From positions 1 to 24,421 of IMG/VR virus record IMGVR_UViG_3300031631_000546: 24,421 bases of DNA; one strand, written 5' to 3'. A model generated the notes under the pieces. It was given only the letters and a program-made list of their open reading frames with translations, was not told the DNA's origin and ran no database searches. The position numbers were made by a program, and so were the translations under genes. The DNA is from a virus. Of the stretch, positions 126 to 21,286 are shown piece after piece. Position 1 is the stretch's first letter; each line of letters begins with the position of its first letter.

Positions 126-936
126 CACACAGATCTCCCGTCCGATCTATGGACGTGAGGAGGTGTACATCCACCGTGGAGATGGTGCGTCCCAGTTCGT
201 CCGTGGTGGTGATCACGCTCCTGGTGACGAAGGCTCCTTCCTGGTCAACGATGACGACCGTGGACGCCTCCACTGCATGTCCAGCGATGACTAGCACCTG
301 GGCTTCCCCGCTCAGGTTGGCATAGTCCACCACCACCGTGGGCGACCCGCGCCCAATGCTCGTGCTTCCGCCGTCGTCGGTGTAGACCCCGGGCTGGCCG
401 AAAACGATGGGGTAGTAGAGACCCCAGGATTGATCTGGGGTCTGGTAGGCGCTGATGCCCTGTTCCCAGGTGCTCTCAGTGACCCGCGCCGTCGACGGTG
501 GGATCAGGGCGGTGTCATCGAAGGGGTTCTCTTCCAGGCTGAAGGTCACGGGCTCAGATTCGGAGCCATACTCTGGCTCAACGACCTGCCCGACCAGGAG
601 CACCTGGCGCACCTCGTAGGGAGTGCCGACGACCCATAGAGCTAGCTCACCCTCGGCGCTGGCCAGGTCGTGCCCAGCCTCGATCCGCTCCGCGACATCG
701 ATCCCGAAGGCCACCTCAACCGCCACCGTCCTCAGCTCGGGGCTGGTGGTGAGGATCTCCAGGGAGTCCTCATACTCCAGGGAGCCCAGGCCACCGTGAT
801 GGGGGAGGCTGGTGCCGTCCTCGTCCACGGGGCTGATGGGTCGGGTGGAGAAGCAGTAGACCTGACCGCCCCAGGTGATGGACAGGAGCCAGAGCACCTC
901 GGCCTCAACAAGATCAGAGCGGGTCAGGCGTCCCAT
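88..936 (-). CDS. Putative distal tail / tail-tip protein
   Basis: This 282-residue protein is the last gene of the leftward virion operon in the window. Its ATG overlaps the TGA of the sialidase-like tail gene (TGATG), so the two are probably translationally coupled. It opens with a beta-rich stretch (LLSITWGGQVYCFSTRPISPV, about residues 17-37). A repeated style of short strands follows, resembling baseplate-hub or tail-tip proteins that sit after the tape measure in siphoviruses. I recognise no catalytic motif. The C-terminus ends in AAQYPATRRR, close to a direct repeat, and may have been altered by duplication there. The tail role rests on position; the exact protein is not identified. 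Confidence 0.6.
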   Translation of the reverse strand: MGRLTRSDLVEAEVLWLLSITWGGQVYCFSTRPISPVDEDGTSLPHHGGLGSLEYEDSLEILTTSPELRTVAVEVAFGIDVAERIEAGHDLASAEGELALWVVGTPYEVRQVLLVGQVVEPEYGSESEPVTFSLEENPFDDTALIPPSTARVTESTWEQGISAYQTPDQSWGLYYPIVFGQPGVYTDDGGSTSIGRGSPTVVVDYANLSGEAQVLVIAGHAVEASTVVIVDQEGAFVTRSVITTTDELGRTISTVDVHLLTSIDRTGDLCASAAQYPATRRR

Positions 937-4226: not shown

Positions 4227-4229
4227 GCT

Positions 4230-4248
4230 TCAATCCCCCCCGGGATTC
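4230..4248 (-). promoter_or_regulatory. G-run ribosome binding site in a small inverted repeat
   Basis: On the minus strand AATCCC-GGGG-GGGATT precedes the ATG of the sialidase-like tail gene. The seven-G run is the only Shine-Dalgarno-like sequence there. The flanking arms could fold it into a short hairpin. Similar layouts occur at 6599-6612 and 10018-10031 (TCACC-GGGG-GGTGA). Confidence 0.5.
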
Positions 4249-4252
4249 GGGC

Positions 4253-6097: not shown

Positions 6098-6594
6098 CAG
6101 GACACCCCCTCACCGTTGGCCAAGGCCACCAGCTCGGGCTCCAGTTCCTCCGCCAGTTTCTTCTCAGACCGGCGGGCTGGCTTCCTCACCCTCTCACCCC
6201 ACACGGAGCGCATCGTGAGGGCATCCGTGGGGGCACCCTCACCGTATTTCTTCTTCAGGTAGTCACGCTGGGCAGCGGTTGTTCCCGCCGACTTCAGCTC
6301 CGCTGAGGTGTACTTCGAGAACTTGATCTTGTAGGCGTAGGGAGCAGTGTTCTCCAGGACAACGACCACACCATCAGGGTCGAGCCTCGTGGTGACTCTG
6401 AAGGCATCCCGGGACTTGCCCGAGCGTACCGGCCACGTTGCCAGGGCTTCTGCCTTGATGGCATCGGCCTCGGCCTCCATTGCGCGGGAGACGATGCCAG
6501 GGGCGCCCTGGAGGATCTGGTCGGCCATGCCCTCAAGGGCACCATCCAGTTCGATCTCAACGTCCCCGTCTCGGTATGTGTATCGGCGTCCCAT
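6097..6594 (-). CDS. HK97 gp10-like virion morphogenesis protein
   Basis: This 165-residue protein has the hallmark of HK97 gp10-type head-tail joining or tail-completion proteins: an amphipathic helix of Ala and Glu followed by a Pro-Val-Arg-x-Gly block (EAEADAIKAEALATWPVRSG, about residues 41-60), then beta strands (VVVVLENTAPYAYKIKF). The family usually lies between the connectors and the tail tube. Here it sits between the tail chaperones and the tape measure, which is an unusual order. A GGGGGGTGACAG ribosome site precedes the ATG. The family call is by motif and size only. Confidence 0.65.
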   Translation of the reverse strand: MGRRYTYRDGDVEIELDGALEGMADQILQGAPGIVSRAMEAEADAIKAEALATWPVRSGKSRDAFRVTTRLDPDGVVVVLENTAPYAYKIKFSKYTSAELKSAGTTAAQRDYLKKKYGEGAPTDALTMRSVWGERVRKPARRSEKKLAEELEPELVALANGEGVS

Positions 6595-6597
6595 CTG

Positions 6598-6834
6598 TCA
6601 CCCCCCGGTGAACCAAAAGTCCTCTGCCCCCTCGTTCTTCGCCCGGTACTTCTTCCGCTTGTCCGCCACTTGCTGGGCGAGGGCTTGGGCGGCTCGGGAT
6701 GCCCTTTGCTTCTTGGGGGATGCCGTCGGTGTCCGTGAGCGCCACCAGCCGATGAGCCGTGCCTGCTTCCCCGACGGGAGGTCGTAGAACCAATCCTCAT
6801 CCCTGCCCATGTGAACGCAGAGAGCCAGGATCAT
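6598..6834 (-). CDS. Tail assembly chaperone, downstream (T-like) part
   Basis: This 78-residue frame lies immediately after the first chaperone and one frame back from it. It contains LALCVHMGRDEDWFYDL followed by a basic helical end, typical of the T segment of lambda-type gpG/gpGT pairs. Reading the upstream gene in the -1 frame near 6846-6858 passes through codons for G-V-D-A straight into this ATG with no stop. It is therefore probably made mainly as the C-terminal part of a frameshifted fusion that binds the tape measure. No good ribosome site precedes its own ATG. The GG-TGA end abuts the next gene's leader. Confidence 0.65.
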   Translation of the reverse strand: MILALCVHMGRDEDWFYDLPSGKQARLIGWWRSRTPTASPKKQRASRAAQALAQQVADKRKKYRAKNEGAEDFWFTGG

Positions 6835-6839
6835 GGCGT

Positions 6840-7220
6840 CTACGCCCCCTTCGGGGGATCGGAAAAATCCTCGGCTTCCGAGACCTCTTCTTCTCCGTAG
6901 AGTTCGTGCGTCACGAGGCCATAGGCGAGGGTGCCCGCGAAGGCGATCTCCGCCATCTTGGCACCGGATGCGATGAGGCTGTCAATGACGGCACCACCAT
7001 AGGCCATGGAGTCATAGCCGCACCCTGAGAGGGTCGGGCGATGCTTCCCAGGCCATGGGACACCCCGAGGCCAACAGGAGCCCAGACAGGCTGCTGTCGC
7101 CCTTGTGGGTGACCCTGTGGTCTGTGTGCCCAGTTCCCATCGCTCTGCGTAGGAATGCGGCAGGGAGAGTGTGACCTCAACCCCTGCCACAGTGACCTCA
7201 GGTGCAGTCATATCGTTCAT
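6840..7220 (-). CDS. Tail assembly chaperone (G-like)
   Basis: This 126-residue protein lies between the tail tube and the tape measure, the fixed position of the tail assembly chaperone in siphoviruses. I chose the ATG at 7220 because GGGAGGACATC directly precedes it. A longer open frame upstream runs through the intergenic palindrome and has no ribosome site. The protein ends ...EDFSDPPKGA, rich in acidic residues, and the stop TAG falls 5 bases before the next ATG. CCCCCGAAGGGGGCG just before the stop is the likely slip region, although no perfect X-XXY-YYZ heptamer is in frame. Confidence 0.65.
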   Translation of the reverse strand: MNDMTAPEVTVAGVEVTLSLPHSYAERWELGTQTTGSPTRATAACLGSCWPRGVPWPGKHRPTLSGCGYDSMAYGGAVIDSLIASGAKMAEIAFAGTLAYGLVTHELYGEEEVSEAEDFSDPPKGA

Positions 7221-7234
7221 GATGTCCTCCCCCA

Positions 7235-7259
7235 ATCCACTCAGGATTCCTGAGTGGAT
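7235..7259. repeat. AGGAWTCCT palindrome, copy 1 (25 bases)
   Basis: A perfect odd-length palindrome with arms ATCCACTCAGGA and TCCTGAGTGGAT around a central T. It begins at the last base of the tail tube stop codon and fills the gap before the chaperone ribosome site. The same 25 bases with a central A recur at 23489-23513. It could be a processing or attenuation hairpin or a protein-binding site. There is no U run after it. Confidence 0.9.
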
Positions 7260-7756
7260 CAGGTCATGGTCGGGCTGCCGCCCAGGACGGTGAATGAGAA
7301 GCTCGCGCTGTTGGGCTCGCCCTCTGAGAGATCCATGGTGACGATGCAGTCGTCGCACTCGATGGAGTGGTCGGAAGCGTCACCCAGGCTCACACCTTCC
7401 ACATCCCACTGAAGGTGGGATGTGGTCGCGTCCCCGTTGCTCAACGTTGATACGTTGCCGGAGTAGGAGCCCTGCTGGAGAACGAAGTCGATCACCGTCT
7501 GATCTGTCACATCTGAATAGTCTGCAATCAGGCAGGAGAAGGAGCCGCTGGGCTCGGTGCTCTCGCCTACGCGCACGGTCTGTGTCTTGCCGCGAACTTT
7601 GTAGATCTTGATGTCGGCCTGATCCGCCGAGAGTCCGCTGAGTTTGAAATCACCCACAGTGAAGGGAATCACCAGGCTCACCGGAGTAGGCGTGGTGCCG
7701 TCCGTGATGGTCAGTTTCCCGTCGTAGAGATGCTTGAGTACTTCAGATGCAGCCAT
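7259..7756 (-). CDS. Major tail tube protein
   Basis: This 165-residue beta-rich protein lies after the connector genes and before the tail chaperones, as expected for the tail tube subunit that polymerises into hexameric rings. The sequence has alternating strands with few helices (residues 12-60 and 105-160), for example SASFSFTVLGGS near the C-terminus, a strand pattern seen in tail tube folds. The length fits the family. The ATG follows GGGGGAACAATC. The stop touches a 25-base palindrome. Identity comes from position, size and fold character. Confidence 0.72.
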   Translation of the reverse strand: MAASEVLKHLYDGKLTITDGTTPTPVSLVIPFTVGDFKLSGLSADQADIKIYKVRGKTQTVRVGESTEPSGSFSCLIADYSDVTDQTVIDFVLQQGSYSGNVSTLSNGDATTSHLQWDVEGVSLGDASDHSIECDDCIVTMDLSEGEPNSASFSFTVLGGSPTMT

Positions 7757-7815
7757 GATTGTTCCCCCAGGCTCCCAAGAAGCACGAAGCCTCCAGGGTT
7801 ACCCGTCAGTGATGG

Positions 7816-8694
7816 TTACGGAGCCACCGGGTAGAGCACGGCGAAGGCTTTGGAGCCGTCAGGTGCTGTGGTGGGCGTGACCGAATCGGTGATCGCACTC
7901 CAGGTGCCAACCTCATTGACGCCCGCTACAGCCAGCGTCCCCACCTGGCGGTGCAGGCTCCGGCTGAGGCCCAAAGTGTCGTGCGTGCCGATGGATGCAC
8001 CAGCAGCGTTGACGCCAACGGCTCCCTTGGTCGCGGATACCACGGTCTTGAAGATCTTGGATCCCAAAACCGAAGAGCCAGGATTAGCCACGAAGTCCTC
8101 GTTGACAGCCTGATCGAACTGGTCAGTGCCGACTACATTGACGTTCCCGCCATCCCAAGAAGCCTGGAAGTCCACCTGCAAGGAGCGGGGGACATCGGCA
8201 TCCGAGAAGGCTCCTGGGAAGTCGTTCGAGCCGTCGTTACCGGCAAAAATGGCGTGCACCGCCGTAGTGCTCTTGGCAGCAGGAGGAGCAGCACCGAGAT
8301 CCTCGGCCTGGAACTCCAGGTTGCCCTCAAGCCCGTCAACGCGACCTTCCACTTCATCCACCGCAGCCTGTACCGTTGCAGCGGTCAGGCCAGATGCTGC
8401 GTTGTCGTAGGACACTTCCGCAGCCGCCTGTGCATCCAGCACGAATGCAGCCCAGCCGGTGCCGCCATCCACTGTGTAGTAAAGCAGGTCGTCAGCGCCA
8501 GATGCGTCATCCCGGACGTACAGGGCAACCACACCCGCGTCCAGGTGGTAGGCCCCAGAGGGCACTCCCGTGCCTGGGATGATCTCGATGTAGGAGGTGG
8601 TGGCTCCATCAGCATCGTCGCTGAGTCGGAGAGCCGCCATCTTGATGATCTTGTCGCGGAAGTTTGCGCCAAGTTTGTGGGTTGCGTCTGCCAT
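7816..8694 (-). CDS. Virion structural protein, possibly decoration or tail-associated
   Basis: This 292-residue protein lies between the tail completion protein and the tail tube and has its own promoter-like site and a leader of about 90 bases. The middle contains SYDNAASGLTAATVQAAVDEVEGRVDGLEG (about residues 94-123), a short helical linker pattern common in phage fibre and virion proteins, flanked by beta-rich parts. The ATG follows GGGGGGACT inside a leader nearly identical to that of the capsid gene (TTCCCTTGGGGGGAC). A separate promoter and capsid-like leader suggest that the protein is needed in many copies. The exact role is unknown. Confidence 0.55.
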   Translation of the reverse strand: MADATHKLGANFRDKIIKMAALRLSDDADGATTSYIEIIPGTGVPSGAYHLDAGVVALYVRDDASGADDLLYYTVDGGTGWAAFVLDAQAAAEVSYDNAASGLTAATVQAAVDEVEGRVDGLEGNLEFQAEDLGAAPPAAKSTTAVHAIFAGNDGSNDFPGAFSDADVPRSLQVDFQASWDGGNVNVVGTDQFDQAVNEDFVANPGSSVLGSKIFKTVVSATKGAVGVNAAGASIGTHDTLGLSRSLHRQVGTLAVAGVNEVGTWSAITDSVTPTTAPDGSKAFAVLYPVAP

Positions 8695-8710
8695 AGTCCC
8701 CCCAAGGGAA

Positions 8711-8817
8711 TGTGACTACACCCCGAGAGCCGCAAAACTCTTCAAGGTAGCAGTAGTCGGTAGTAGATGAGAGCGTCCCTGCCCTCACTGAGATTATACC
8801 CTGCGTGTGACTACACC
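8711..8817. repeat. 12-base direct repeat flanking a promoter
   Basis: TGTGACTACACC occurs at 8711-8722 and 8806-8817, on either side of the -10 box at 8793-8798. The right copy contains the stop codon of the upstream gene. Confidence 0.7.
8793..8798 (-). promoter_or_regulatory. -10 box (TATAAT) before the 292-residue virion gene
   Basis: The minus strand reads GCAGGGTATAATCTCAGTGA. Eighteen bases (8785-8802) are identical to the site before the capsid gene. It lies in the gap after the gene ending at 8811, with a leader of about 90 bases to the ATG at 8694. No clear TTGACA -35 is visible. Confidence 0.6.
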
Positions 8818-9254
8818 AGGGCGAGATTGTGTTTGCAGGTGAAGGTCAGCTCCCCCAGAAGCCAACCGTCTGCCACCGCACCCCGCTGGGAACGGGTGTA
8901 GATCACATGAAGCCATGTGCTTCGATGGATGGTGTGGATGGCCTTCAGCAAGTCGGCTTCCGCGTCCAGGGCGCTGTCATAGCCAGCCACCTGATCGAGA
9001 GCCGCGATGCTGACGCTGTAGCGGACGCCTACCATCGTGGTGACCTCCACCATCCCCCGCTGGGGGCCCCGAGTCGGAGTCGTGGAAGTGCAGCCCACGG
9101 AATAGCACCTGTCGGAGATGTTCTCCGAGTCCCACTCAGTGCCGAACAGATCATAGGGCACCGTGGACTCGCTCCACTCTGAGGCAGCCAGGGCGGTGAT
9201 GACAGCGGTAGAGACCGCCTGCCGCACTTCTGCGGCGGTGAAGGTGGAGGCCAT
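8811..9254 (-). CDS. Putative tail terminator / neck protein
   Basis: This 147-residue protein has the length and order of tail completion or terminator proteins: a helical start (TAAEVRQAVSTAVITALA), then beta strands (GMVEVTTMVGVRYSVSIAAL), a helix (SALDAEADLLKAIHTI) and final strands. Such proteins cap the tail tube and join it to the head. Its ATG overlaps the stop of the preceding connector gene (TGATG). The assignment rests on size, alternating structure and position. Confidence 0.5.
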   Translation of the reverse strand: MASTFTAAEVRQAVSTAVITALAASEWSESTVPYDLFGTEWDSENISDRCYSVGCTSTTPTRGPQRGMVEVTTMVGVRYSVSIAALDQVAGYDSALDAEADLLKAIHTIHRSTWLHVIYTRSQRGAVADGWLLGELTFTCKHNLALV

Positions 9255-10015
9255 CAGATCCCCCAGCCACCGCCCCAGGATGTGGTGGGCGGCTGGTTCA
9301 TGTAGACGACACCCTTGGAGGCCGCGAAGAGATCGTCGGAGTCGGCTACGCCATCATCTCCCGTGGCCTTGACGAACCTCAGCCGCTTCCAGGCCAGCTC
9401 GAACTCACGCTTGTGGGCCTGGGCGAGTTCCATCCAGCGACCACCCTGGGCCTTGGAGAAGTCAAGCATCACGAGGTGAAGCACAAGTTCCAGGTGAACC
9501 TCTCTCAGGCTCCAGCTGGAGACGATGTGCTCGGGGAATATACCTTGGCCTTCCAGGCGCCCCAGGATGCGCTTCCAGCCCTCGGTCACATAGCCTTGCC
9601 ATGTGGTAACGGTGGAGCCACGGTGGCGGCTGAGGTCGGTGTAGACGCTCTCAATGTCCTGGTCTGTGACCACCGGGTAGGCGGCGTGGAGCACGAGGGC
9701 AGCGTCCCTGCGATACGTCCTGGTGACGCCATCCGCGCAGATCAGTTCCCACTCTTCCCTGTACCCGTGACCCAGGCTCAGGGTGCTACCCAGGTCGGTG
9801 TCGCTGATGGAGTAGGTGGCCACGCTGGAAGCGATGGTGACTGAGCCGGTAACGATGGTCTCGGTGCCCTGGTCATACAGACTGAAGGTGCCCGAGGTTG
9901 GAGCAGCCAACGAGCCATCCCGGTACAGCGGGAGGCTCACGGTCTGTGTGCGTCCCCTCTCCAGGTAGTCTGGAAAGGCAACCCGCACCGAGTACAAGGT
10001 CTCTGCGCTCGACAT
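9254..10015 (-). CDS. Putative head-tail connector protein
   Basis: This 253-residue protein comes between the capsid group and the tail completion gene. The first about 95 residues are beta-rich and Ig-like (VSLPLYRDGSLAAPTSGTF, SVTIASSVATYSISD). The rest is helical (TDLSRHRGSTVTTWQGYVTEGWKRILGRLEGQG), as in adaptor proteins that dock under the portal. A GGGGGGTGAGAC ribosome site precedes the ATG at 10015. Connector function is inferred from gene order. Confidence 0.5.
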   Translation of the reverse strand: MSSAETLYSVRVAFPDYLERGRTQTVSLPLYRDGSLAAPTSGTFSLYDQGTETIVTGSVTIASSVATYSISDTDLGSTLSLGHGYREEWELICADGVTRTYRRDAALVLHAAYPVVTDQDIESVYTDLSRHRGSTVTTWQGYVTEGWKRILGRLEGQGIFPEHIVSSWSLREVHLELVLHLVMLDFSKAQGGRWMELAQAHKREFELAWKRLRFVKATGDDGVADSDDLFAASKGVVYMNQPPTTSWGGGWGI

Positions 10016-10017
10016 GT

Positions 10018-10031
10018 CTCACCCCCCGGTG
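10018..10031 (-). promoter_or_regulatory. TCACC-GGGG-GGTGA ribosome-site inverted repeat
   Basis: The Shine-Dalgarno G run before the connector ATG is the loop and right arm of a 5-base-pair inverted repeat. The same 14 bases occur before the gp10-like gene (6599-6612). Confidence 0.5.
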
Positions 10032-10037
10032 ATTCGT

Positions 10038-10187
10038 CTACTTGCGATCCCCGGACTCCCGTTCCTCATTGCGGATGCGGGCTTCCCGAGCCTTCTTCTT
10101 CGCGTGCTCTACGGGGATGCCAGCCTTGACCAGCCTCTCCACAGTGCGGTCGATTACCTGCCTGCCGTCTTGCTTCTCGCCACTCAT
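10038..10187 (-). CDS. Small basic hypothetical protein (49 residues)
   Basis: The ATG overlaps the TGA of the gene upstream (TGATG), and the frame ends in TAG just before the connector leader. The protein begins MSGEKQDGRQVIDRTVE and is highly charged and helical, with a KKKAREARIRNEERE stretch. Tight coupling to both neighbours supports it as a real gene. Its function is unknown; short helical proteins of this kind sometimes accompany head proteins. Confidence 0.65.
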   Translation of the reverse strand: MSGEKQDGRQVIDRTVERLVKAGIPVEHAKKKAREARIRNEERESGDRK

Positions 10188-10852
10188 CACTCCCCCTTGG
10201 CCTTGCAGCTCAGGGGCTTGGCCTGAGAGGCGTTGAGCGCCTCCAGGGCGGCTTCGGCCTCGGCCTGCTGTTGCTTGGCCTTGGGCAGATGGATGTCCTT
10301 CTGGATGCGTCCCAGGCGGCGCTGAAGCCGCTGACGCAGACGGTTGAGCACCTTCGGTCGGGGCTCACCGATACGCCCTTCTTCCACCAGCGACCGACGC
10401 CAGGCGTTGAAGCCGTCGTGGTCGAAACTCGGGTCATGATCCCCATCCGGGTAGACCCGATACCGCTCCCACTTGAGATGGTAACTGGTGCCCCGAATAC
10501 TGGGGATGCTCACCGTATAGGTCTCGGTGTCGGTGAGGGTGGCCTGCCCATCGTCCTCTAGCTTCGCCCGCATCCGTCCGGTGCGGGTGGGCTCCTTGGG
10601 GTTCTTCGCCTGCTCCGCCATGATGCAACCAGGGCGGATGGGGATGCGACGGAGGAGCGGGAGGAACTCCCACTGCCCACCGTGCTCCACCAACTCCCAG
10701 TTGTTGTGGTGGTGTACAAGGTAGAATGGCCAGCCCCGATCCTCACCGAAGTCAGGAAGGGTGCCGCCTGCGGTCTCGCCACGGGAAACGGTGGTGCCTG
10801 TGACGAAGCCCTCGGAGTCTACTACCGGGGCTGGTGCCAGTGTCTTAGCCAT
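10187..10852 (-). CDS. Virion-region protein of unknown function (221 residues)
   Basis: This gene lies directly after the major capsid gene, separated from it by a strong hairpin. The N-terminal half is mixed (GWPFYLVHHHNNWELVEHGGQ), with aromatic and His residues. The C-terminal third (about residues 165-221) is a long basic-acidic helix (RLRQRLQRRLGRIQKDIH) likely to form a coiled coil. The ATG follows AGAGGACAGACCCATC. It may be a head completion or minor capsid protein. I do not recognise a family. Confidence 0.6.
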   Translation of the reverse strand: MAKTLAPAPVVDSEGFVTGTTVSRGETAGGTLPDFGEDRGWPFYLVHHHNNWELVEHGGQWEFLPLLRRIPIRPGCIMAEQAKNPKEPTRTGRMRAKLEDDGQATLTDTETYTVSIPSIRGTSYHLKWERYRVYPDGDHDPSFDHDGFNAWRRSLVEEGRIGEPRPKVLNRLRQRLQRRLGRIQKDIHLPKAKQQQAEAEAALEALNASQAKPLSCKAKGE

Positions 10853-10878
10853 GATGGGTCTGTCCTCTTGCGGGGGTT

Positions 10879-10941
10879 GGTAGCCCTGGGGGACGGAGGC
10901 CCCGGAGGACAGGGATCGAGACCCCCACCCCCAGGGCTACC
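10879..10941 (-). terminator. 14-base inverted repeat hairpin after the capsid gene
   Basis: GGTAGCCCTGGGGG (10879-10892) and CCCCCAGGGCTACC (10928-10941) are perfect inverted repeats around a 35-base loop that is itself rich in G and C runs. The hairpin starts 8 bases after the capsid stop codon. No U run follows it in either direction, so it may be a weak or factor-dependent terminator, a processing site or an mRNA-protecting structure that favours capsid synthesis. Confidence 0.65.
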
Positions 10942-10948
10942 TCAGGGT

Positions 10949-11866
10949 CTAGGTGCTGCTCAGGAGGCCGACGATGCGCGCCTGCTCACGGATGGTCTGA
11001 CCATCGTAGGCGTTGCCCACGATCTCCAGGGTCGCAGCGGAGCTGTTGACCTCGAAGTCGATCACGACGGGCATCCCAGCGGGCTTCACGTTGCCCGCGT
11101 TTGTGATGACCGAGGTGGGGCTGCCGACACCGTAGGCGATGGCTCCGACACCCATCACAGCACCCTCATACTTGGAGGCTGCCGTGGTGACGTAGGTCGA
11201 CGGGAAGATCGCGATGCCCAGCAGTTCCTCGGCTCCAAGGGCCTTGTACGCCTGCACATCTCCACGGTAGGCGACGGGGCCCACTTCGGAACGGAGGGAG
11301 TCGCGGATCTGGCTGCACTGTTGGGGGCTGAACATTGCGAACAGATTGCCCCGGTAGCCGTTGGCGCTGAAGGTGTCGATTACGTCGTAGAGATCATCCA
11401 CGGTCGCAGTGCTCGTGGCAGTGATGTTCGTGGTCGCCCCAGCCACGGTGGTGCCCAGGTTGGTCATCCAGCCCGCGTCATAGGAGGCGAGCATGGTGCC
11501 GCCGATGGCCTTGGGATCGAATCCCCAGGAGCCACCGACGATCTGAGTCAGCTGGGACTCGTCCAGGCGGAGAGCCCGACGAGCGATGGTGACATCGGCG
11601 TAGGCTCCAGTAACGCTGGAGGCAGCCACATCCGTGGTTTCGGCAGCCGTGGTGGCCATGGGCAGGGAGTGCCCCAGCCCGATGAGGCGGTGGCGAAGAA
11701 CGTTGGAGCCCGCGCCGGATGCGTCACCGATCCAGTAGACGATGGGGCTGTTGCGGAGGCTGAGGTCATCAGCCAGAGAGAGAGCCATATACTGCTCAGC
11801 CATTGCGAGATCGTTCAAGATCCCTTCGCTGACCAGATTGGCCGTGGTGAACGAGGAAAACGCCAT
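10949..11866 (-). CDS. Major capsid protein (HK97-type, inferred)
   Basis: This 305-residue protein follows the scaffold gene and has its own promoter-like site, leader and downstream hairpin, the usual setting of the most abundant virion protein. It starts with a helical N-arm (SEGILNDLAMAEQYMALSLADD). Further on it shows the alternating strands and helices of HK97-fold capsids, such as ARRALRLDESQLTQIVGG (about residues 95-112) and a P-domain-like helix TATVDDLYDVIDTFSANG. A GGGGGGACATC ribosome site precedes the ATG. I see no prohead protease gene in the module. Confidence 0.82.
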   Translation of the reverse strand: MAFSSFTTANLVSEGILNDLAMAEQYMALSLADDLSLRNSPIVYWIGDASGAGSNVLRHRLIGLGHSLPMATTAAETTDVAASSVTGAYADVTIARRALRLDESQLTQIVGGSWGFDPKAIGGTMLASYDAGWMTNLGTTVAGATTNITATSTATVDDLYDVIDTFSANGYRGNLFAMFSPQQCSQIRDSLRSEVGPVAYRGDVQAYKALGAEELLGIAIFPSTYVTTAASKYEGAVMGVGAIAYGVGSPTSVITNAGNVKPAGMPVVIDFEVNSSAATLEIVGNAYDGQTIREQARIVGLLSST

Positions 11867-12025
11867 GATGTCCCCCCAAGGGAATAGCGGTGGTTTCGTT
11901 GGAATCCGCCGTTATCGCTGTTCCCCTCGGCCTATGGCCTGATGGGGCACCCGTGGAGGTGACCGGAGCTACCGTCAGCGGCTGTCGTCTGTCACTGAGA
12001 TTATACCCTCAGTGTTGTGTAACTG
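11867..12025 (-). promoter_or_regulatory. Capsid gene leader with -10 box at 12000-12005
   Basis: The minus strand reads CTGAGGGTATAATCTCAGTGA, and the -10 is flanked by the inverted repeat CACTGAG/CTCAGTG. A TAGCAG hexamer lies 17 bases upstream of TATAAT. The site starts about 20 bases after the scaffold stop codon. It gives a leader of about 125 bases with possible hairpins, ending in TTCCCTTGGGGGGAC before the ATG. Confidence 0.62.
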
Positions 12026-12688
12026 CTAAGTGTTGCTACGATCCTGGTTGCGCTGTTGGTACAGAGCCTCCCAGGCATCCATGTTGTCCGCCTGCCTGAT
12101 GGTGCCCACGTCCATTCCACCAGCTGGGGGTGGCGGAGAGGGCTGCTGCCCACGCATGGTGGACTGCCACTGTGGCTGGGGCTGCTGTCCCGTGGGAGCC
12201 GTCTGTGTGGCTCCAGTGGGCTGCTGTGTGGGCTGGGGTGCAGCGGCGCTCTGTCCCTCTTGCTCGGGGGTGAAGAGATGCCGCAGGTAGGTGGGTGCCT
12301 GGGTTGGGTCGGCCTTGGCACCCTCAAGCCAGCCGCCGAAGTCCACCTGATCCTTCTTGGCCAGCCCGCCCATCGCCTTGGTGTGCGCCCATTCCAGCGC
12401 CTCGATGGTCTCGGCGTCGCTGACTCCGTGCTGGGTGGCGGCCTGATAGCGCCCGAACTTCCCCTCGGCCTGGCCCAGTTTGGTGGTCAAGTCCTGCACC
12501 TGGGTAGCCAGGGTGTCGGCGGTGGTTGCGCGGCCTTCTACCTCACCGAGCTTCCCCAAGGCTTCCTTGGCCTTGGTTTCCCATTCGGTGGCTCGGGTGG
12601 ACACCTTGCCCACGCGGTCACGGACGATGGTCTCCACATCGCTCTTCAGGATGAAGACCTGACCCTCGTGTTCGATCTCAGTAGCCAT
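12026..12688 (-). CDS. Capsid scaffolding protein
   Basis: This 220-residue acidic, helical protein lies between portal and capsid genes, the standard scaffold position. Residues 20-80 form a probable coiled coil (SDVETIVRDRVGKVSTRATE). Residues 145-195 are low-complexity Gln, Pro and Thr, and a short helix ends the protein. This matches scaffolds that guide procapsid assembly and then leave the shell. The ribosome site AGGAGGACAGGCATC precedes the ATG and overlaps the portal stop codon region. Confidence 0.8.
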   Translation of the reverse strand: MATEIEHEGQVFILKSDVETIVRDRVGKVSTRATEWETKAKEALGKLGEVEGRATTADTLATQVQDLTTKLGQAEGKFGRYQAATQHGVSDAETIEALEWAHTKAMGGLAKKDQVDFGGWLEGAKADPTQAPTYLRHLFTPEQEGQSAAAPQPTQQPTGATQTAPTGQQPQPQWQSTMRGQQPSPPPPAGGMDVGTIRQADNMDAWEALYQQRNQDRSNT

Positions 12689-12701
12689 GATGCCTGTCCT
12701 C

Positions 12702-14126
12702 CTACGCTGTCATTGACATTGCGGGGAACAGGGCGTTCTCCCGCTGGATTCGTTGCAGTTCCTGGATGGCCTGATCTCTCGTCAGGCCGGGATGCAGGCG
12801 TCGGAAGCCGTCCACCTTGCTCATCAGCCCCGTGTTGATCTTGGCCAGGATGTCCTCACGCTGCGCCTGGAGTTCCCCCCCACTCAGGGGCAGGCTCGGG
12901 TACGAGATGGCGTACCCGGACTCGGGGTAGCTGGTGCCGGTGGAGCGGTTGAGAATCTTGGCGGTGATGCCGAGAAGCTCAAGGTCACCTGCCCTCAACA
13001 TGGGCTCCACACGAGCCTGAGCGCTGCGGAGTCCCTCACGGGAGATGGAGAGGCTGACTCCGGATCTGGGGTCTGCCCCGGTGCGGACGAGGTCGGCGGG
13101 GCTCACCCCGGCATACTCGGCCAGCCCCGCTTCGAAGGCTTGGAGAGCCTGGATGGAGGTCAGCGGGTCGAACCCTGGCTTGAGTTGCACCACGGACGGC
13201 TGCCCCTGGTAGTCCTCCACGGGAGCCGCCTCGATGATGGCACCGGGCTCTACGCTGATGACATTCCGCCTGGACTTCTTGCCCGGGGAGGCCACCTCTA
13301 CACCCGTGACCCGACCACCCATCAGGATGACCGTGGCGAAGGAGCCGTCCTTCACACCATGGACAAAAAACGTAGTGAGGACACCGACTGTCAGGCTTCC
13401 GAGCACGCATTCAATCCCCGTCCAGGAATTCCACAACTTCCCGGTTCGCTCCGCGTGGTACATCGCCACAGGCAGGAAGGGCATGCCGTCACCATCGCGG
13501 TAGCGGTAGTCGCCTTCAGGCAGGTACAGATCGGTGAGATCCTTCTTGCGGTCAGCGTCGACCACGAGGTGGGCTGGGTGATCGAGGTCGGTGATGTCCA
13601 GTACCTCCCACACCCACTCACTCTTCCCCGTCTCGGGGTTGACCCTGAGCTGCATCTCTTCCATGGCCACCGGACGATCCGGGGCTTCAGGGAGGGCACG
13701 GGCGACCACCTGGTCAGGGCTGAGAGGCCGATACAGAAGGCCACCACGAGGGCTCCAGTCCGCTCTCACAGGAACTTCTCTGAGGCCGATGAGGTCGGTG
13801 GATACACGCTGCTGAAGTTGCCAGAGCCCCGTCTGCGTCACCTGATGGAGCATAGGTTCGGAGCCCGCTTCCCCTGCCACTGTGGGCGGCTCTCGGTAGA
13901 GGGTGCCACCGACCTGTCCCACGAGGGAGGCGAAGGGATTCCTGCTTGCCTCGGGGATGCCCCAATTCTGCACACGGTCTGCGGAGATGTGGCGTTCCAG
14001 AGCCTTCTTCAGATCCTTCAGCCACAATCCAGAGAGCATCCTAATCCGCAGGGATTGGTGCTCCGCCCTCTTGTGGTCGTATGTGCTGGGCATAGCCGGA
14101 CGGCTAGGCGTAGTGCTGTCTGTCAT
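12702..14126 (-). CDS. Portal protein
   Basis: This 474-residue protein follows the large terminase gene and precedes the scaffold gene. It fits the dodecameric portal through which DNA is packaged. Portal-like features include a helical start (HKRAEHQSLRIRMLSGLWLKDL), a central strand-rich wing (residues about 150-270) and a helical stem and clip with QALQAFEAGLAEYAGVSP (about residues 325-342). A C-terminal helix (LTRDQAIQELQRIQRENALFP) ends the protein. I prefer the ATG at 14126 because GGGGGGACAACAC precedes it; an in-frame ATG at 14141 is possible. A promoter-like box lies just upstream. Confidence 0.82.
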   Translation of the reverse strand: MTDSTTPSRPAMPSTYDHKRAEHQSLRIRMLSGLWLKDLKKALERHISADRVQNWGIPEASRNPFASLVGQVGGTLYREPPTVAGEAGSEPMLHQVTQTGLWQLQQRVSTDLIGLREVPVRADWSPRGGLLYRPLSPDQVVARALPEAPDRPVAMEEMQLRVNPETGKSEWVWEVLDITDLDHPAHLVVDADRKKDLTDLYLPEGDYRYRDGDGMPFLPVAMYHAERTGKLWNSWTGIECVLGSLTVGVLTTFFVHGVKDGSFATVILMGGRVTGVEVASPGKKSRRNVISVEPGAIIEAAPVEDYQGQPSVVQLKPGFDPLTSIQALQAFEAGLAEYAGVSPADLVRTGADPRSGVSLSISREGLRSAQARVEPMLRAGDLELLGITAKILNRSTGTSYPESGYAISYPSLPLSGGELQAQREDILAKINTGLMSKVDGFRRLHPGLTRDQAIQELQRIQRENALFPAMSMTA

Positions 14127-14157
14127 GTGTTGTCCCCCCATGGATGGGACTATCGCA

Positions 14158-14163
14158 ATTATA
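14158..14163 (-). promoter_or_regulatory. -10 box (TATAAT) before the portal gene
   Basis: The minus strand reads GTGACGGTATAATTGCG, 8 bases past the terminase stop codon. Predicted transcripts would have a short leader of about 25 bases. CCCAT-CC-ATGGG forms a small inverted repeat beside the portal ribosome site. Confidence 0.55.
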
Positions 14164-14170
14164 CCGTCAC

Positions 14171-15682
14171 TCAGAAGGAACGGTAGAGGGTTCTCGGTGC
14201 GTGTGTTTTTGTCGGTGTGATCAGGTGTCTGCAGGCGTAGCGCACTGAGTCGATCTGGTCTTTCTCAGGAGCACGATCACCACCGTTGAACTTGTTGAAG
14301 CACTCGATGGTGCGAGTACAGGCGGCGTCGATGAAGAAGTGGCCAGGGCGGATCATCGCGTCGTTGAGCCAACGGTAGCCACGGAACACTGCTCCACGCC
14401 CAGCACCCTTGCCTGTCTTGACGCCACGGATGATCGGACGGAGACCTCGGGTTGTCCCGAGGGCATCCTCCAATGCTTCCAGCATGGCGCTGTTGCTCTT
14501 CTTCGCGTTGATCCCTCGCTTGCCCGAGTAGGCGACATCTCCCCAGGCGTAGTCCAGTTCCGACCATTGTACGCCCCTTGCTGAGAGCATGGAGAGCACT
14601 GCGGCTGCATCCATGTCCAGGGTGGATGAGCGGTCGGGGGAATACTCCCCAATGATGTAGACCTTCGGGTGCTTCCCACTCTCATCTATGGCGGCAAGGC
14701 AGGCTGCTGTCCTGAGACGATCCAGGCCGTAGTCGGCTCCGAAAGTCAGCGTCACAGAGCCCTGCGGTGCCACCTGGGACGAGAGCAGGTTGGGGATGAC
14801 GTGCTCGGTCTCGTGGAAGTTCTCGAAGATCCGATCTGTATGTCGGAACTCGAACTCGCCATGGATTGTGACTGGAGCCTCCCAGGAAAGGGTCTCGGCC
14901 TCCACCTGCTCAATCCAGGTGGCATCGCAGAGGGTGCCATCTGTCAGGCGGATGGGCTGGTCGGTGCCGTGGAAGCAGAGGTTCTGCGGCTCCAGGCGGA
15001 AGTGAAGATCCCGAATACGACCGGCCTCGACTTCCTCGCGAAGCCAGTCAACTGGGGCATTGACTGGCGTGAGACTCAGGATGACCGTCCCCGCCCTGTG
15101 CTGCACCCGCTTCTGCACCTCGCCGTAGATACGGGCATCGGGAGGGGGCTCATCGAAGATGGCGAAGTCGATAGTGGCACCGGCCAGGGCGAGCCCCCCC
15201 TGCCTCGCAGTCTTGATGCGGAGCAGGGAGCCGTTGAGGAATCTCACCGCAGGGTTGCGACCACGAAAGCCCTTGACCGGATCGAATTCGACCGAGGGAT
15301 CCAGGGCGGCTTTGGGTAGCAACTCCCACAGCTTCTGCTGGATGGCCAGGGACTGCGACCACGAGGCGGTGATGATCCAGCCTTCTACCGGGGCAGAGGG
15401 GATCGCCTTCAGGGGGTGGTGCCCGATGCAGCGGTAGATGGCCTCGGCCAAGGCAGCGGTGGTCTTCCCTTGGCTCTGATTCCCACACCGCAAGAGCACC
15501 ACTCTCTCGGTGGCCGAGAGGAGAGAGTGCTGGGCAGGCAACCACCGCATGAAGTCCAACGGTGAAGCCTCTGCGCGCCGCCCCAACTCACGGAGAGCAC
15601 CCAGCAGGGCTACCCCTGCCTCGGGGTTCTGATCAGCGCAGGAATCCTGCGCGGATTGCCTTCCTGTCCCCCCGTCCCTCAT
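14171..15682 (-). CDS. Terminase large subunit
   Basis: This 503-residue packaging motor couples ATP hydrolysis to DNA translocation and cuts the concatemer. Walker A is GNQSQGKTT at residues 67-75 and Walker B with its catalytic acid is AIFDEPP at 174-180. The C-terminal RNase H-like nuclease shows acidic residues in FGADYG (D317), IIGEY (E346) and WGDVAY (D382). A late acidic pair (KDQIDS, 475-480) may complete the site. The ATG overlaps the small subunit stop (TGATG). Residues about 10-17 (SAQDSCAD) are encoded by palindrome copy 2, an apparent in-frame insertion near the N-terminus. Confidence 0.92.
   Translation of the reverse strand: MRDGGTGRQSAQDSCADQNPEAGVALLGALRELGRRAEASPLDFMRWLPAQHSLLSATERVVLLRCGNQSQGKTTAALAEAIYRCIGHHPLKAIPSAPVEGWIITASWSQSLAIQQKLWELLPKAALDPSVEFDPVKGFRGRNPAVRFLNGSLLRIKTARQGGLALAGATIDFAIFDEPPPDARIYGEVQKRVQHRAGTVILSLTPVNAPVDWLREEVEAGRIRDLHFRLEPQNLCFHGTDQPIRLTDGTLCDATWIEQVEAETLSWEAPVTIHGEFEFRHTDRIFENFHETEHVIPNLLSSQVAPQGSVTLTFGADYGLDRLRTAACLAAIDESGKHPKVYIIGEYSPDRSSTLDMDAAAVLSMLSARGVQWSELDYAWGDVAYSGKRGINAKKSNSAMLEALEDALGTTRGLRPIIRGVKTGKGAGRGAVFRGYRWLNDAMIRPGHFFIDAACTRTIECFNKFNGGDRAPEKDQIDSVRYACRHLITPTKTHAPRTLYRSF
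15636..15652. repeat. AGGAWTCCT palindrome, copy 2 (17 bases, in coding)
   Basis: GCGCAGGA-A-TCCTGCGC is a perfect odd palindrome inside the start of the large terminase gene. On the minus strand it reads AQDSCA. Confidence 0.9.
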
Positions 15683-16299
15683 CAGATCTTCCCATCGTCC
15701 AGGGCGGCTCTCAGGGCGTCCCTGAGCGCCGTGGGCATGGCGGCTATCGCTGCCTTGGCCTCGGCCAGCACCTCATCGGTGGAGGCCACCTGGGCACGCT
15801 GAGCGGCTTCCTGGGCGTCCCGTTCCCTGATGGATGCGAGCGCCAGGGCTTCCTGCTCCAGGAGCCTTGCGGCTGCCACCATCGAGCCTCGGGACTGTGC
15901 ATCGCGGCGGAGACCACGGACATCCCGCAGATGAGCCAGGAGGGGATCGGTGTCGGCGGCCTCAGGCTGGTCAGCCTCAGGTTCAGGTGGCGGAACGTCC
16001 AGCCCCGTGACCCTGGCCTGCAAGTTGCGGAGCGTGGCCACAGGAGCCCAGCGCCGGTCGGTCTGGGCTTGGCGGAGGTCAGCGTCCAGGTCAAGGAGGA
16101 AACGGGTACGACGATCCTCACGGGTGCCCAGCATCTCATCGCGGAGGTAGCCGACCACCACATCTCGATCCCTGTAGATCGTCTTGGTGCTCACCCCAGC
16201 CTGCTTGGCCAAGGTGGTCATCCACGAGCCCGAGTAGCCATGCTCCCGCATGGCCACCTCAACAGCCTGGAGACGCTTAGCCCTGGTCATCTTGGACAT
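15682..16299 (-). CDS. Putative terminase small subunit
   Basis: The gene lies just before the large subunit and overlaps it (TGATG). From the ATG at 16299 it encodes 205 residues. A helix-turn-helix (WMTTLAKQAGVSTKTIYRDRDVVVGYL, about residues 26-52) would bind the packaging site on DNA. A long helical C-terminal half would oligomerise and contact the large subunit. An earlier in-frame ATG at 16413 would add 38 residues but overlaps the upstream gene and has a poor ribosome site. ATG codons at 16299 or 16290 fit better. The call is by order and domain type; sequence families of small terminases diverge strongly. Confidence 0.7.
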   Translation of the reverse strand: MSKMTRAKRLQAVEVAMREHGYSGSWMTTLAKQAGVSTKTIYRDRDVVVGYLRDEMLGTREDRRTRFLLDLDADLRQAQTDRRWAPVATLRNLQARVTGLDVPPPEPEADQPEAADTDPLLAHLRDVRGLRRDAQSRGSMVAAARLLEQEALALASIRERDAQEAAQRAQVASTDEVLAEAKAAIAAMPTALRDALRAALDDGKI

Positions 16300-16747
16300 A
16301 TGGCGTCCCGTCAGCCGAAGATCGCGGTGTTCTTCCACCGTGGGGGGGGAGAATGTCGGCGGGGGGAGAGGCCCCGGTAGGGTCTCCCTGATCACATGCC
16401 GATGACGTGCCATCTACCGTGCTTCTCACCGGCTCCACTACGCAATAGTAGGCGGCGGCTCCCGGAGCCATGCCGTCGAGCTCCTTGGTGGGCTCCCCGC
16501 CATCAAGGATCACGTTGGCAGGCCAGCGTCCCTTGTCTGCGTCGACGGTGGTGACCCGCTGGTAGACGCCGAAGCATTCATGGCGGGGCTTCTCCCCGAT
16601 GTCCTCGGGCATCTTGACGGAGCAGGTGCCACCCTCGGAGCCTGCCCGGGAGGCGTCTATGTTGAGGGCTCCGGTGCCCCAGCGGATCACGTTGGCTGCC
16701 ACGGTGCGCTCGGACAGGGGCTTCCTGATGACATGGACGGTCAGCAT
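16277..16747 (-). CDS. Orphan fragment of a phage DNA methyltransferase (target-recognition part)
   Basis: Residues 1-110 match a recognisable block of phage N4/N6 DNA methyltransferases: IRKPLSERTVAANVIRWGTG, NIDASRAG, GRWPANVILDG and AAYYCVVEPVRS. In full enzymes this block lies between the catalytic and the SAM-binding parts. Here neither the catalytic DPPY/NPPF-type motif nor the FxGxG SAM loop is present. The frame starts just before the conserved RKPL and ends in a low-complexity tail of about 45 residues. The ATG overlaps the stop of the 67-residue gene, and the 3' end overlaps the terminase small subunit. It could be a decaying remnant or a stand-alone DNA-binding or decoy protein. 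Confidence 0.6.
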   Translation of the reverse strand: MLTVHVIRKPLSERTVAANVIRWGTGALNIDASRAGSEGGTCSVKMPEDIGEKPRHECFGVYQRVTTVDADKGRWPANVILDGGEPTKELDGMAPGAAAYYCVVEPVRSTVDGTSSACDQGDPTGASPPADILPPHGGRTPRSSADGTPYVQDDQG

Positions 16748-18326: not shown

Positions 18327-18424
18327 GGACGATCCTACACCCTCGGAGGCGGATCATGACCCCCTGAGGCTGGCGGTGGTCGATGGGCGCGGGGAGGGCT
18401 ATGGCTGGGGATGGAGGTGAACCG

Positions 18425-18853
18425 ATGTCGTGGCCACCAAGACCCCCAGACTGGATTGGCGATCTGCTCACCGCAGATCAAGAGGAACTACGGGCTCACG
18501 TCGAAGGAGCGTATGTCCTGATCCTGCCGGATACGGCACGCAAGATCCCGTACCCGCTTCGCAGATCTCGCGTATTCTACATTGGCAAGGCAGGAGAGGG
18601 ATCAGATCGCCTCTCCACGCACCAATACCACACCTCCCGTGCAGTGGCAGACCTGCAAGCCAATGGCGGCAGGTATTTTGAGGAGCCTTGGTGGCCTCGC
18701 TACACTTGGGCGGCTGGCCATGGTGGAGCCGTGGTGTGGTGGTTCTCGCGCCGGGGGACTCAGACCGCAGGCGATGTGGAGGTGATGCTGGTAAACGCCT
18801 TCTTTAGTCGGTTCGGCTCCATCCCCGTGGCCAACGGACAGTGGCCATCGTAG
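18425..18853 (+). CDS. GIY-YIG nuclease-fold protein
   Basis: This 142-residue protein starts at an ATG preceded by GGAGGTGA; an upstream in-frame start at 18383 lacks such a site. The GIY-YIG signature is present: GAY (28-30) opening strand one and VFYIGKAGEG (50-59) containing YIG, with R62 and H66 in DRLSTHQ. The catalytic-type Glu is E119 in GDVEVMLVNAF, and N137 follows in PVANGQ. The family cuts DNA as homing, repair or restriction nucleases. It lacks an obvious DNA-binding extension, so it may rely on a partner. It is the first gene of a plus-strand cassette and could be a defence effector or a homing enzyme that moves the cassette. Confidence 0.7.
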   Translation: MSWPPRPPDWIGDLLTADQEELRAHVEGAYVLILPDTARKIPYPLRRSRVFYIGKAGEGSDRLSTHQYHTSRAVADLQANGGRYFEEPWWPRYTWAAGHGGAVVWWFSRRGTQTAGDVEVMLVNAFFSRFGSIPVANGQWPS

Positions 18854-18877
18854 CGCGCTCGTTTCTGGAGGAAGACC

Positions 18878-19837
18878 TTGGCCATCTTCGACGTGTTTTC
18901 CAAGAGGCTCCGGCGTCAGCAGGGTCAACTACCTGATGTGTTCTTCTACGACCGCATTCCCGGCACCCTTCGAACCAACGTTGTGCAGGTGGCTGTGGAC
19001 ACCATTGGTAACCCGGGACAGGGGAGGAGTAGAGGGCTGGATGAATACCCCGAAGGGGTCTACTCCGAAGTTCATCGCCGCCTATGCCGCGAGAGCGGCG
19101 TGTTTGTCCTGGTTGAGAGATACCAAGGCGATCATGGCATGGAGGTGCTGAACTACATCACCAAGCATGAGGACACGCTACAGGTCATCGATGCCATCGA
19201 ACTCATCATGCGTGCGATGGTGAACATCGGTGTCAGGAGGAACTACCACTACTCGATCTGGCGACGGGACTACAAGACCCGGCAAACCCCCGAAGAGTCG
19301 GTGCAGGAGCTGAACCAGCGCTTCCTTGAGCACGGCTTCGGCTACCAGTTCGAGGAGGGGCAACTCGTCCGCGTGGACAGCACCTACGCCCATGCGGAGA
19401 TGGTGAAGCCCGCACTATCCCTTGTCCATGCTCGCAGGTTCAAGGGAGCCAACCAGGAGTTCCTCCAAGCCCACGAGCACTACCGCCATGGGCGACACCG
19501 CGAGGCCATCGTCACCGCCAACGCAGCCTTTGAGAGCGTCTTGAAAGTTATCGTGGCTAAGCGGAAGTGGATGGATGCGAAGAAGCTCAAGACGGCTCCC
19601 GCAAAGCCTCTCATCTTGGCGTGCATCAACGGTGACCTTGTGCCCGGCTACATGCAGGACGAACTGAACCGGCTGGAGGGCATCCTGTCGGGTGGTCTTC
19701 CCACCGTGCGGAACAAGGATGGTGGTCACGGCCAGGGAGGCACGGTGAAGGAGATCCACCAGCACGTCGCGGGCTTTGCCCTCCATATGGCCGCCGCCAA
19801 CATCGTCTTCCTCGTGGAAGCGGACAAGGCTCTGTAG
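18878..19837 (+). CDS. AbiJ-like abortive infection protein with HEPN domain (STM4504/CBY_0614 type)
   Basis: This 319-residue protein starts at TTG (18878) after GGAGGAAGACC. The N-terminus MAIFDVFSKRLRRQQGQLPD with downstream YDRIP..LR is characteristic of AbiJ N-terminal-domain (STM4504/CBY_0614) proteins. The C-terminus is the Abi_C/HEPN region: helix EAIVTANAAFESVLKVIVAK (209-228), then RNKDGGHG (278-285), an R-x5-H HEPN RNase motif, and the hydrophobic helix GFALHMAAANIVFLVEA. HEPN proteins of this kind cleave RNA and shut down an infected cell. It follows the GIY-YIG gene by 24 bases. The domain assignment is by recall and motif; the trigger is unknown. Confidence 0.78.
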   Translation: MAIFDVFSKRLRRQQGQLPDVFFYDRIPGTLRTNVVQVAVDTIGNPGQGRSRGLDEYPEGVYSEVHRRLCRESGVFVLVERYQGDHGMEVLNYITKHEDTLQVIDAIELIMRAMVNIGVRRNYHYSIWRRDYKTRQTPEESVQELNQRFLEHGFGYQFEEGQLVRVDSTYAHAEMVKPALSLVHARRFKGANQEFLQAHEHYRHGRHREAIVTANAAFESVLKVIVAKRKWMDAKKLKTAPAKPLILACINGDLVPGYMQDELNRLEGILSGGLPTVRNKDGGHGQGGTVKEIHQHVAGFALHMAAANIVFLVEADKAL

Positions 19838-19854
19838 AAGGTGGAGAGGGCAGC

Positions 19855-20955
19855 GTGACTTTCAACATTATGTGGAAGCGCCACGGGCGCATCTTTGCAG
19901 CCAGTGACTCCATCTCCATGGTGCGAACTACCAACCCGACACGGACGACCTCCTTCGGTCAGATAGCCGAAGGGAAGGGTGTCGCCTATTATGAGAATGC
20001 GCTGAAGACCTTCAACCTCGATGACACCTTCTTGGTTCAGGTCGCAGGGGATGCAGCGAAGGGTATGCGCTTTGCTGCGATACTCAACACACTGCGAAGG
20101 CGAGTGCGGCCTGAAGAGGCGTTGAGGATGTGCTTCCACCTTGACCTGGCTGGGTGCCAGATTCACGTGGGTCACTATCTGAACGGTGATGCCGAGATCC
20201 TCAAGTATGATGGTCACCGGCTCCTGCATGTAGACCGACTCGCCTCATCAGGCAGCATAGACGAGGTGGCCGAGTCCTTTATGGTTCAACAGTGCCTATC
20301 GCTCGATGAAATCTCCCTATCTCATGACCTATGTGTTCCCGCTGTGCAAGCGGCATTTCAAGCATTCGTGGCGCACCACCCGACACTTGAAGATGGTGTA
20401 GGGGGCTACTTCCTGTGTTGTAGCCTTGGTGTAGATGGGTGCCGATGGCAGGAGCACACCAGCTTCTACCTCTACGACAACGATCTTTTTGAGAATGCTA
20501 CGACGGGGCTGGCATCAGACGCCCCACCAGGCTGGGTCAGCCCCAGCCCCGCAGACGTGCTGGGGGGGATTGATGCTGTCATGGAACAGCACGCACTCTA
20601 CGTCGAATCCAACATCGCAGACGAGACTATACTGATGGCGACGCCTCTTCTCACGGAGGCCGATGACGAGGGACTCCCGATAGGATGGCGGAAGGCGTTG
20701 AACTGTCTGCGTCACAAGACACCAAAATATGTTGTGTTCATCTCCAAACAGGCTCCCATTGCAACCGTCGTACCCATGACACCAATCGTTTGGGACAAGA
20801 AGTTCCTTCGCATTGTGACAACAGGTGAGCATACTCGGCTGGAAATCTCCGAGAACCTTCGGGAGATGCTCAAACGCGCGCCTCGCAGGAACACCAATCT
20901 CGATCTCCCAGTCGCGTTCCATCCAGAGGTGTATGTGCTGACTGAGTGGCTATAG
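19855..20955 (+). CDS. Proteasome/HslV-like Ntn-hydrolase fold protein
   Basis: This 366-residue protein starts at GTG 19855, 17 bases after the AbiJ-like gene. Residues 1-85 resemble HslV and proteasome beta subunits. Thr2 would become an N-terminal nucleophile after Met removal, and GRIFAASDSI places an Asp at mature position 17, as in proteasomes. YYENALKTFNL gives a Lys in the Lys33 context, and FLVQVAGDAAKGM matches the following strand and Gly47 turn. The second half (about 200-366) is not recognised. No partner ATPase (HslU, Mpa, ClpX) is present. In this setting it may be a peptidase or a sensor that controls the HEPN protein. Activity is unproven. Confidence 0.62.
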   Translation: MTFNIMWKRHGRIFAASDSISMVRTTNPTRTTSFGQIAEGKGVAYYENALKTFNLDDTFLVQVAGDAAKGMRFAAILNTLRRRVRPEEALRMCFHLDLAGCQIHVGHYLNGDAEILKYDGHRLLHVDRLASSGSIDEVAESFMVQQCLSLDEISLSHDLCVPAVQAAFQAFVAHHPTLEDGVGGYFLCCSLGVDGCRWQEHTSFYLYDNDLFENATTGLASDAPPGWVSPSPADVLGGIDAVMEQHALYVESNIADETILMATPLLTEADDEGLPIGWRKALNCLRHKTPKYVVFISKQAPIATVVPMTPIVWDKKFLRIVTTGEHTRLEISENLREMLKRAPRRNTNLDLPVAFHPEVYVLTEWL

Positions 20956-21031
20956 GACGGGGCTGCCCCAAGTTGTCAGTCGGGTTACGCGTTGAGCAGG
21001 GCGATGGTGCCCTCATGGAAGCGGAGCGGTC

Positions 21032-21286
21032 ATGACAACAGAGGAAATCTCGTTCACTAGCATTCCCAACACCAGCACCAATCTCGGGGGAATCTGCCTA
21101 GATATTGATGGCGTTGCCGCCACCGTCTTTCGCACACCTGATGGGAAGATCGGTGTCCTGGTCGAGCTTCCAAAAGGCACGAAGTTCGACGACTACCAAA
21201 ATGAGCAGTTGAACAGCAAGATCAGAGCGGGTTGTGAAAGCATCGCAGACAGAGTCCCCGACTTTTACGACGTGCGCCACAGGTGA
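21032..21286 (+). CDS. Small acidic hypothetical protein (84 residues)
   Basis: Last gene of the plus-strand cassette, 76 bases after the Ntn-hydrolase gene, with GGAGCGGTC before the ATG. The protein begins MTTEEISFTSIPNTSTNLGG and has a beta hairpin-like middle (ICLDIDGVAATVF, GKIGVLVELPKG) and an acidic helical end. I do not recognise it. Its small size and position next to two candidate effectors would suit an immunity or regulatory factor, which is inference only. Strong hairpins follow its stop codon. Confidence 0.6.
   Translation: MTTEEISFTSIPNTSTNLGGICLDIDGVAATVFRTPDGKIGVLVELPKGTKFDDYQNEQLNSKIRAGCESIADRVPDFYDVRHR

Follow-up and report, generated by a model that had tools for sequence, protein, structure and literature searches.

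The question raised by this locus is whether a 366-residue phage protein, first read from its letters as a peptidase of the proteasome/HslV fold acting without any unfoldase, belongs to that superfamily, and what such a protein might contribute to the phage that carries it. The window, that is, the whole stretch of DNA that was analysed, is an entire virus record of 24,421 bases; it is linear, no end repeats were found, and it is possibly a fragment. The reading favored here, with good confidence, is that the protein belongs to the proteasome-like (Ntn-hydrolase) superfamily as a strongly diverged member, that it is extended by an additional C-terminal region, and that its role is likely accessory. 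Stand-alone proteins of this kind are already known from phages, and what is unusual in the present case is the degree of divergence together with a C-terminal region that has no match. The features discussed below are located in Table 1.

Table 1. Features of the plus-strand cassette and of the 366-residue protein, with the evidence for each.
Feature	Coordinates	Strand	Basis
GIY-YIG-like ORF (by eye only), 156 aa, first gene of the cassette	18383..18853	+	motif VFYIGKAGEG
AbiJ_NTD4 + DUF7014 (HEPN-type) abortive-infection protein, STM4504/CBY_0614 family	18878..19837	+	Pfam, NCBIfam, alignment
Ribosome-binding site AAGGTGGAGAGG	19838..19849	+	sequence; within the 17 bp between the AbiJ stop and the GTG start
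CDS, proteasome-like N-terminal domain and C-terminal region, 366 aa, GTG start	19855..20955	+	ORF, ribosome-binding site, codon composition
Proteasome-like (Ntn) domain, residues 2 to about 204	19858..20466	+	family HMM, AF2 model, Foldseek vs PDB
Thr2, predicted nucleophile Thr1 once Met is removed	19858..19860	+	sequence, MAFFT alignment
Asp18, proteasome Asp17 (ASDS motif)	19906..19908	+	sequence, MAFFT alignment
D17-K33 interval, about 17 residues above canonical length	19912..20004	+	alignment; middle predicted unstructured
Lys51, proteasome Lys33	20005..20007	+	sequence, hhalign, MAFFT alignment
AGD turn, Gly65-Asp66; Gly65 = Gly47 (oxyanion hole)	20044..20052	+	sequence, hhalign, MAFFT alignment
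Ser132-Gly133-Ser134, proteasome S129-G130-S131 motif	20248..20256	+	alignment; G133 unchanged across 28 sequences
GVGGY...VDG strand pair, final strands of the fold	20395..20442	+	alignment; model strands 182-192 and 195-199
C-terminal region, residues 205-366	20467..20952	+	no recognisable relative in Pfam, phages, PDB sequences
Small ORF, 84 aa, last in the cassette	21032..21286	+	open reading frame

Phage Genome and Gene Cassette

The structural genes of the phage lie on the minus strand (88-16413) and are very divergent, and PHROGs and Pfam recognize them weakly, if at all. They include a terminase-like ORF and tape-measure, neck, and tail proteins, again with weak recognition, and the phage seems to stand far from described lineages. 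The same strand encodes a 1096-residue protein (936-4226) with a weak match to BNR/Asp-box repeats, which may be a tail protein that carries a sialidase-like propeller, and an ORF (16277-16747) that by eye resembles the C-terminal part of a phage DNA methyltransferase and is possibly truncated. A tRNA-Arg placed by ARAGORN on the plus strand (10274-10364), antisense to an ORF at 10187-10852, is probably a false call.

The gene under study is one of four ORFs that form a plus-strand cassette (18383-21286) with a GC content of 0.56-0.60, as against about 0.64. The first ORF of the cassette has no match in Pfam and a single weak relative from Vibrio campbellii, which is unannotated, and the last has no family match above cut-off among the Pfam, PHROG, NCBIfam, and PADLOC models. 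The 366-codon ORF is real: its codon-position GC (0.61/0.41/0.63) is coding-like, and a AAGGTGGAG-type ribosome-binding site sits 8 nt upstream of the GTG start. Upstream, its frame remains open for 73 codons, none of which is a start codon; GTG-Thr is thus the only credible N-terminus, and the protein starts with Met-Thr.

Predicted Catalytic Motif Constellation

The residues that the sequence-only reading had singled out are all present, namely Thr2, Asp18 (mature position 17), Lys51, and Gly65 within an AGD turn, and T1/D17/K33/G47 thereby occupy the positions conserved throughout the proteasome-like superfamily. The spacing is exactly that of proteasomes for T1-D17 and for K33-G47 (14 residues), and the corresponding fixed-spacing motif occurs once in the window and in none of 100 dinucleotide shuffles. 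The D17-K33 interval, on the other hand, holds about 17 extra residues, which is why a gapless line-up with HslV fails; the resemblance to HslV claimed for residues 2-85 held, but not as a gapless match, and it reaches further than claimed, to about residue 200. In this more distal part, the GVGGY...VDG segment resembles the VGGP...DG strand pair of other bacterial and phage homologues, and two helices lie between SGS and VGG.

The protein is likely to be catalytically active, through Thr1. A catalytically dead derivative of the fold, resembling proteasome alpha and serving as a scaffold or sensor, is a highly improbable alternative. The positions of D166 and S169 do look changed, in the sequence before VGG, but none of Thr, Asp, Lys, Gly, and SGS has been lost, and the inactive alpha subunits, as characterized in PMC8665760, have N-terminal helical extensions, whereas here Thr directly follows the start codon.

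Profile and Alignment Evidence

The 366-residue protein is matched by none of the Pfam, PHROG, NCBIfam, or PADLOC models. PF00227 (Proteasome) gave no match even at E = 10, its curated cut-off of 22.4 bits not being reached, and phrog_1040 gave none at E <= 1, which leaves the protein outside that PHROG family. Because library profiles do not recognize it, distant homologues were gathered by DNA motif scans and genome searches, and family HMMs were built from them without the query. With these, residues 1-216 obtain E values of 3.0e-5 and 7.6e-5 (Z = 1) and score above 1000 of 1000 shuffles, a modest significance given that they are single-comparison values that would miss significance in a large database search. 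The C-terminal part received no score from the same query-free HMMs, and the pooled profile alone separates the query from shuffles, none of the sampled subfamily profiles doing so. The segment selected by hhalign, residues 46-73, lies in exact K33/G47 register with a score of 23.2, the highest score among 200 shuffles and 14 further proteins encoded in the window being 20.0.

In an unguided MAFFT alignment with 27 distant homologues, the only invariant columns are T2, D18, K51, G65, and G133, and conservation of the Thr column is partly built in, the homologues having been selected with a Thr-containing motif. Scanned for as a DNA pattern, this motif recovers genuine PF00227/phrog_1040 proteins. 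Four of 300 shuffles in which MT was kept (about 1%) matched all or five of the invariant columns, so the alignment alone is weak evidence. The similarity to the family as a whole is above chance.

Close relatives were found neither by peptide patterns in GTDB species genomes and IMG/VR nor by tblastn of the 366-residue protein against phage and plasmid records, and a search of 396 Actinomycetota genomes returned noise only. DNA motif patterns incorporating the long loop were tried and rejected as a source of relatives: their matches in IMG/VR were all unrelated ORFs, a few of them in frame, and the one match in GTDB was likewise unrelated. A possible long relative was considered in phrog_5990, an Actinomycetota member of which starts with a Thr/ADS/NKIF proteasome-like motif and has other insertions. 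Divergent proteasome-like proteins of 204-255 residues, with a weak match to PHROG 1040, were also seen on five viral contigs.

Structural Model

From the single sequence, AlphaFold2 gave a model with a pLDDT of 35, and a fold search with it yielded no usable match. Modeling of the domain with the 27 distant homologues gave a pLDDT of 74.4 and a pTM of 0.70, and this alignment-assisted model, built from proteasome homologues, shows a four-layer alpha-beta-beta-alpha fold whose strands and helices follow the order seen in proteasomes. Proteasome chains made up 50 of the 50 matches listed by Foldseek against the PDB, with E values down to 7.6e-10 and TM scores, by query length, of 0.58-0.67 among the matches listed; in BFVD, about 20 viral proteins matched the model, the best including proteins named proteasome or HslV. 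Since the alignment carries proteasome information, the model is partly circular, and it supports the fold without being independent proof. Secondary structure is the same at 66% of positions in the single-sequence and alignment-assisted models, compared with a mean of 33% for shifted strings. Within the D17-K33 interval, residues 30-33 and 35-38 have a pLDDT below 50. Going by the alignment-assisted model, residues 2 to about 200 probably adopt the four-layer fold.

It is in the light of these results that a chance resemblance, in which an unrelated protein happens to have a motif-like N-terminus, has to be weighed. The few unrelated in-frame ORFs met with the long-gap motif across IMG/VR, the shuffles that reach four or five of the five columns, and the empty fold search with the single-sequence model all speak for it. 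Against it, the HMM and hhalign scores exceed those of every shuffle, the further SGS and VGG elements follow in order, and the order of secondary structure in the unbiased single-sequence model matches; such a coincidence is distinctly unlikely. A proteasome-like fold and family are likely for the 366-residue protein, and the assignment to a proteasome/HslV-like group is supported by the family-level HMM statistics, the unguided alignment, and the alignment-assisted model.

Comparison With Known Proteasome-Like Systems

HslV (ClpQ) shares the catalytic constellation and the core strand order with the query, but it is about 175 residues long, works with an HslU partner, has a shorter D17-K33 interval, and lacks a C-terminal region; with its 366 residues, and with the only AAA+ motif of the contig located in the terminase, the query falls outside that family. 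The stretch without a match, which the sequence-only reading placed in the second half, is that from about residue 205 to 366. This last portion of about 150-160 residues, searched alone, had no match in Pfam, phages, or PDB sequences.

Phages commonly carry stand-alone genes of the proteasome-like kind. The survey by Fuchs, Alva and Lupas (2021; PMC8665760) describes PPH and AAH as phage proteasome homologues, PPH being a viral family; PHROG 1040 is annotated as "peptidase HslV family", and one motif scan of IMG/VR yielded > 30 phage proteins of the proteasome-like kind, mostly of 170-190 residues. Together with the BFVD matches, these sources speak against the suggestion that a phage-encoded stand-alone member is unusual. 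Like the query, PHROG 1040/PPH/AAH proteins are phage-encoded and stand-alone, with Thr directly after Met, T1/D17/K33/G47 plus SGS, and no co-encoded unfoldase found; unlike the query, the members compared have about 170-190 residues and neither a C-terminal region nor a long loop. For the phage homologues, the survey reports neither an AAA+ partner that co-occurs nor a genomic context that is informative, so that a missing unfoldase is ordinary here. As for the query, the statement that it lacks any unfoldase is correct within the 24.4-kb contig, whose one Walker A motif belongs to the terminase, but it does not carry beyond this possibly partial record.

Each of the two additions has counterparts, for other families are described in the survey as carrying C-terminal domains or S3/S4 insertions. 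PMI-5 and PMI-6 have an S3/S4 insertion, like the D17-K33 loop of the query, and RPC, DAH, and FC4 have an extra C-terminal domain (PMC8665760). The part of that article considered here mentions no phage protein that combines a loop with a C-terminal domain, these families being compared by description only.

Connectase, an archaeal ligase, is likewise proteasome-like, acts alone, and has an insertion between D17 and K33. It is very unlikely, all the same, that the query has the proteasome-like fold but serves as a specific protein ligase or transferase like connectase, its loop and C-terminal region recognizing the substrate. The extra residues do fall at the apparent S3/S4 site of the specificity insertion of connectase (PMC8665760), and no unfoldase is encoded within the contig; however, the short insertion is predicted to be unstructured, nearer to the description of PMI-5 than to the two helices of connectase, and the helices H1 and H2, which connectase lacks, are predicted in the query.

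The AbiJ Neighbor

The gene immediately upstream matches AbiJ_NTD4 (E = 8.1e-16) and DUF7014 (E = 8.8e-35) in Pfam and STM4504/CBY_0614 in NCBIfam (E = 8.6e-85), a family described as AbiJ-NTD4 fused to HEPN, with CBY_0614 as its prototype (PMC3710099). The HEPN-kind R-N...H motif (R278-N279, H284) is kept in all four aligned members, and relatives with 35-39% identity occur on many plasmids of E. coli, Klebsiella, and Salmonella and on 14 other viral contigs.

A two-gene system of defense or toxin control, for example with the protease activating or destroying the AbiJ-HEPN toxin, would fit with two genes on the same strand, 17 bp apart in one cassette, and with a neighbor that retains the HEPN-like motif. 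It is unlikely, however, given that none of 19 other AbiJ loci (the 14 viral contigs and five from plasmid and phage collections; 17 checked by profile scan and the last two by annotation) has a proteasome-like gene nearby, and that GC3 differs between the AbiJ gene (0.77) and the proteasome-like gene (0.63), the structural genes being at about 0.75. A conserved operon of AbiJ and protease was looked for in these loci and not found. With the pairing absent from these loci, the context says little about the role of the protein, and the two genes are best read as shared accessory cargo.

Proposed Mechanism and Significance

For catalysis, substrate, and role, we infer the following scheme for the divergent proteasome-like protein. 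Methionine aminopeptidase would remove Met1 and expose Thr as the N-terminal nucleophile, Asp18 and Lys51 would complete the catalytic triad, and Gly65 would form the oxyanion hole, supported by S132-G133-S134. Working without an unfoldase of its own, the enzyme may then act on one particular protein, in which it would cut or transfer an amide bond; substrate choice or assembly would be set by the lengthened D17-K33 loop together with the C-terminal region. Its location in a plus-strand cassette with AbiJ, with the structural genes on the opposite strand, argues for an accessory role more than for one in virion assembly, and it might lie in host interference or in excluding other phages; taken by itself, this accessory role has about even chances in our judgment. 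That the 17-residue loop, next to the active site, and the ~160-residue C-terminal domain define a phage subfamily, in which they make a protease or ligase with substrate specificity out of a lone Ntn hydrolase and the gene is accessory, for defense or host interference, is a more specific proposal and a rather unlikely one.

We know of no function for phage proteasome-like proteins. The finding is one orphan sequence of an already known kind, and a member with an extra domain that adjoins an abortive-infection gene offers a concrete case in which the function of phage proteasome homologues may be tested.
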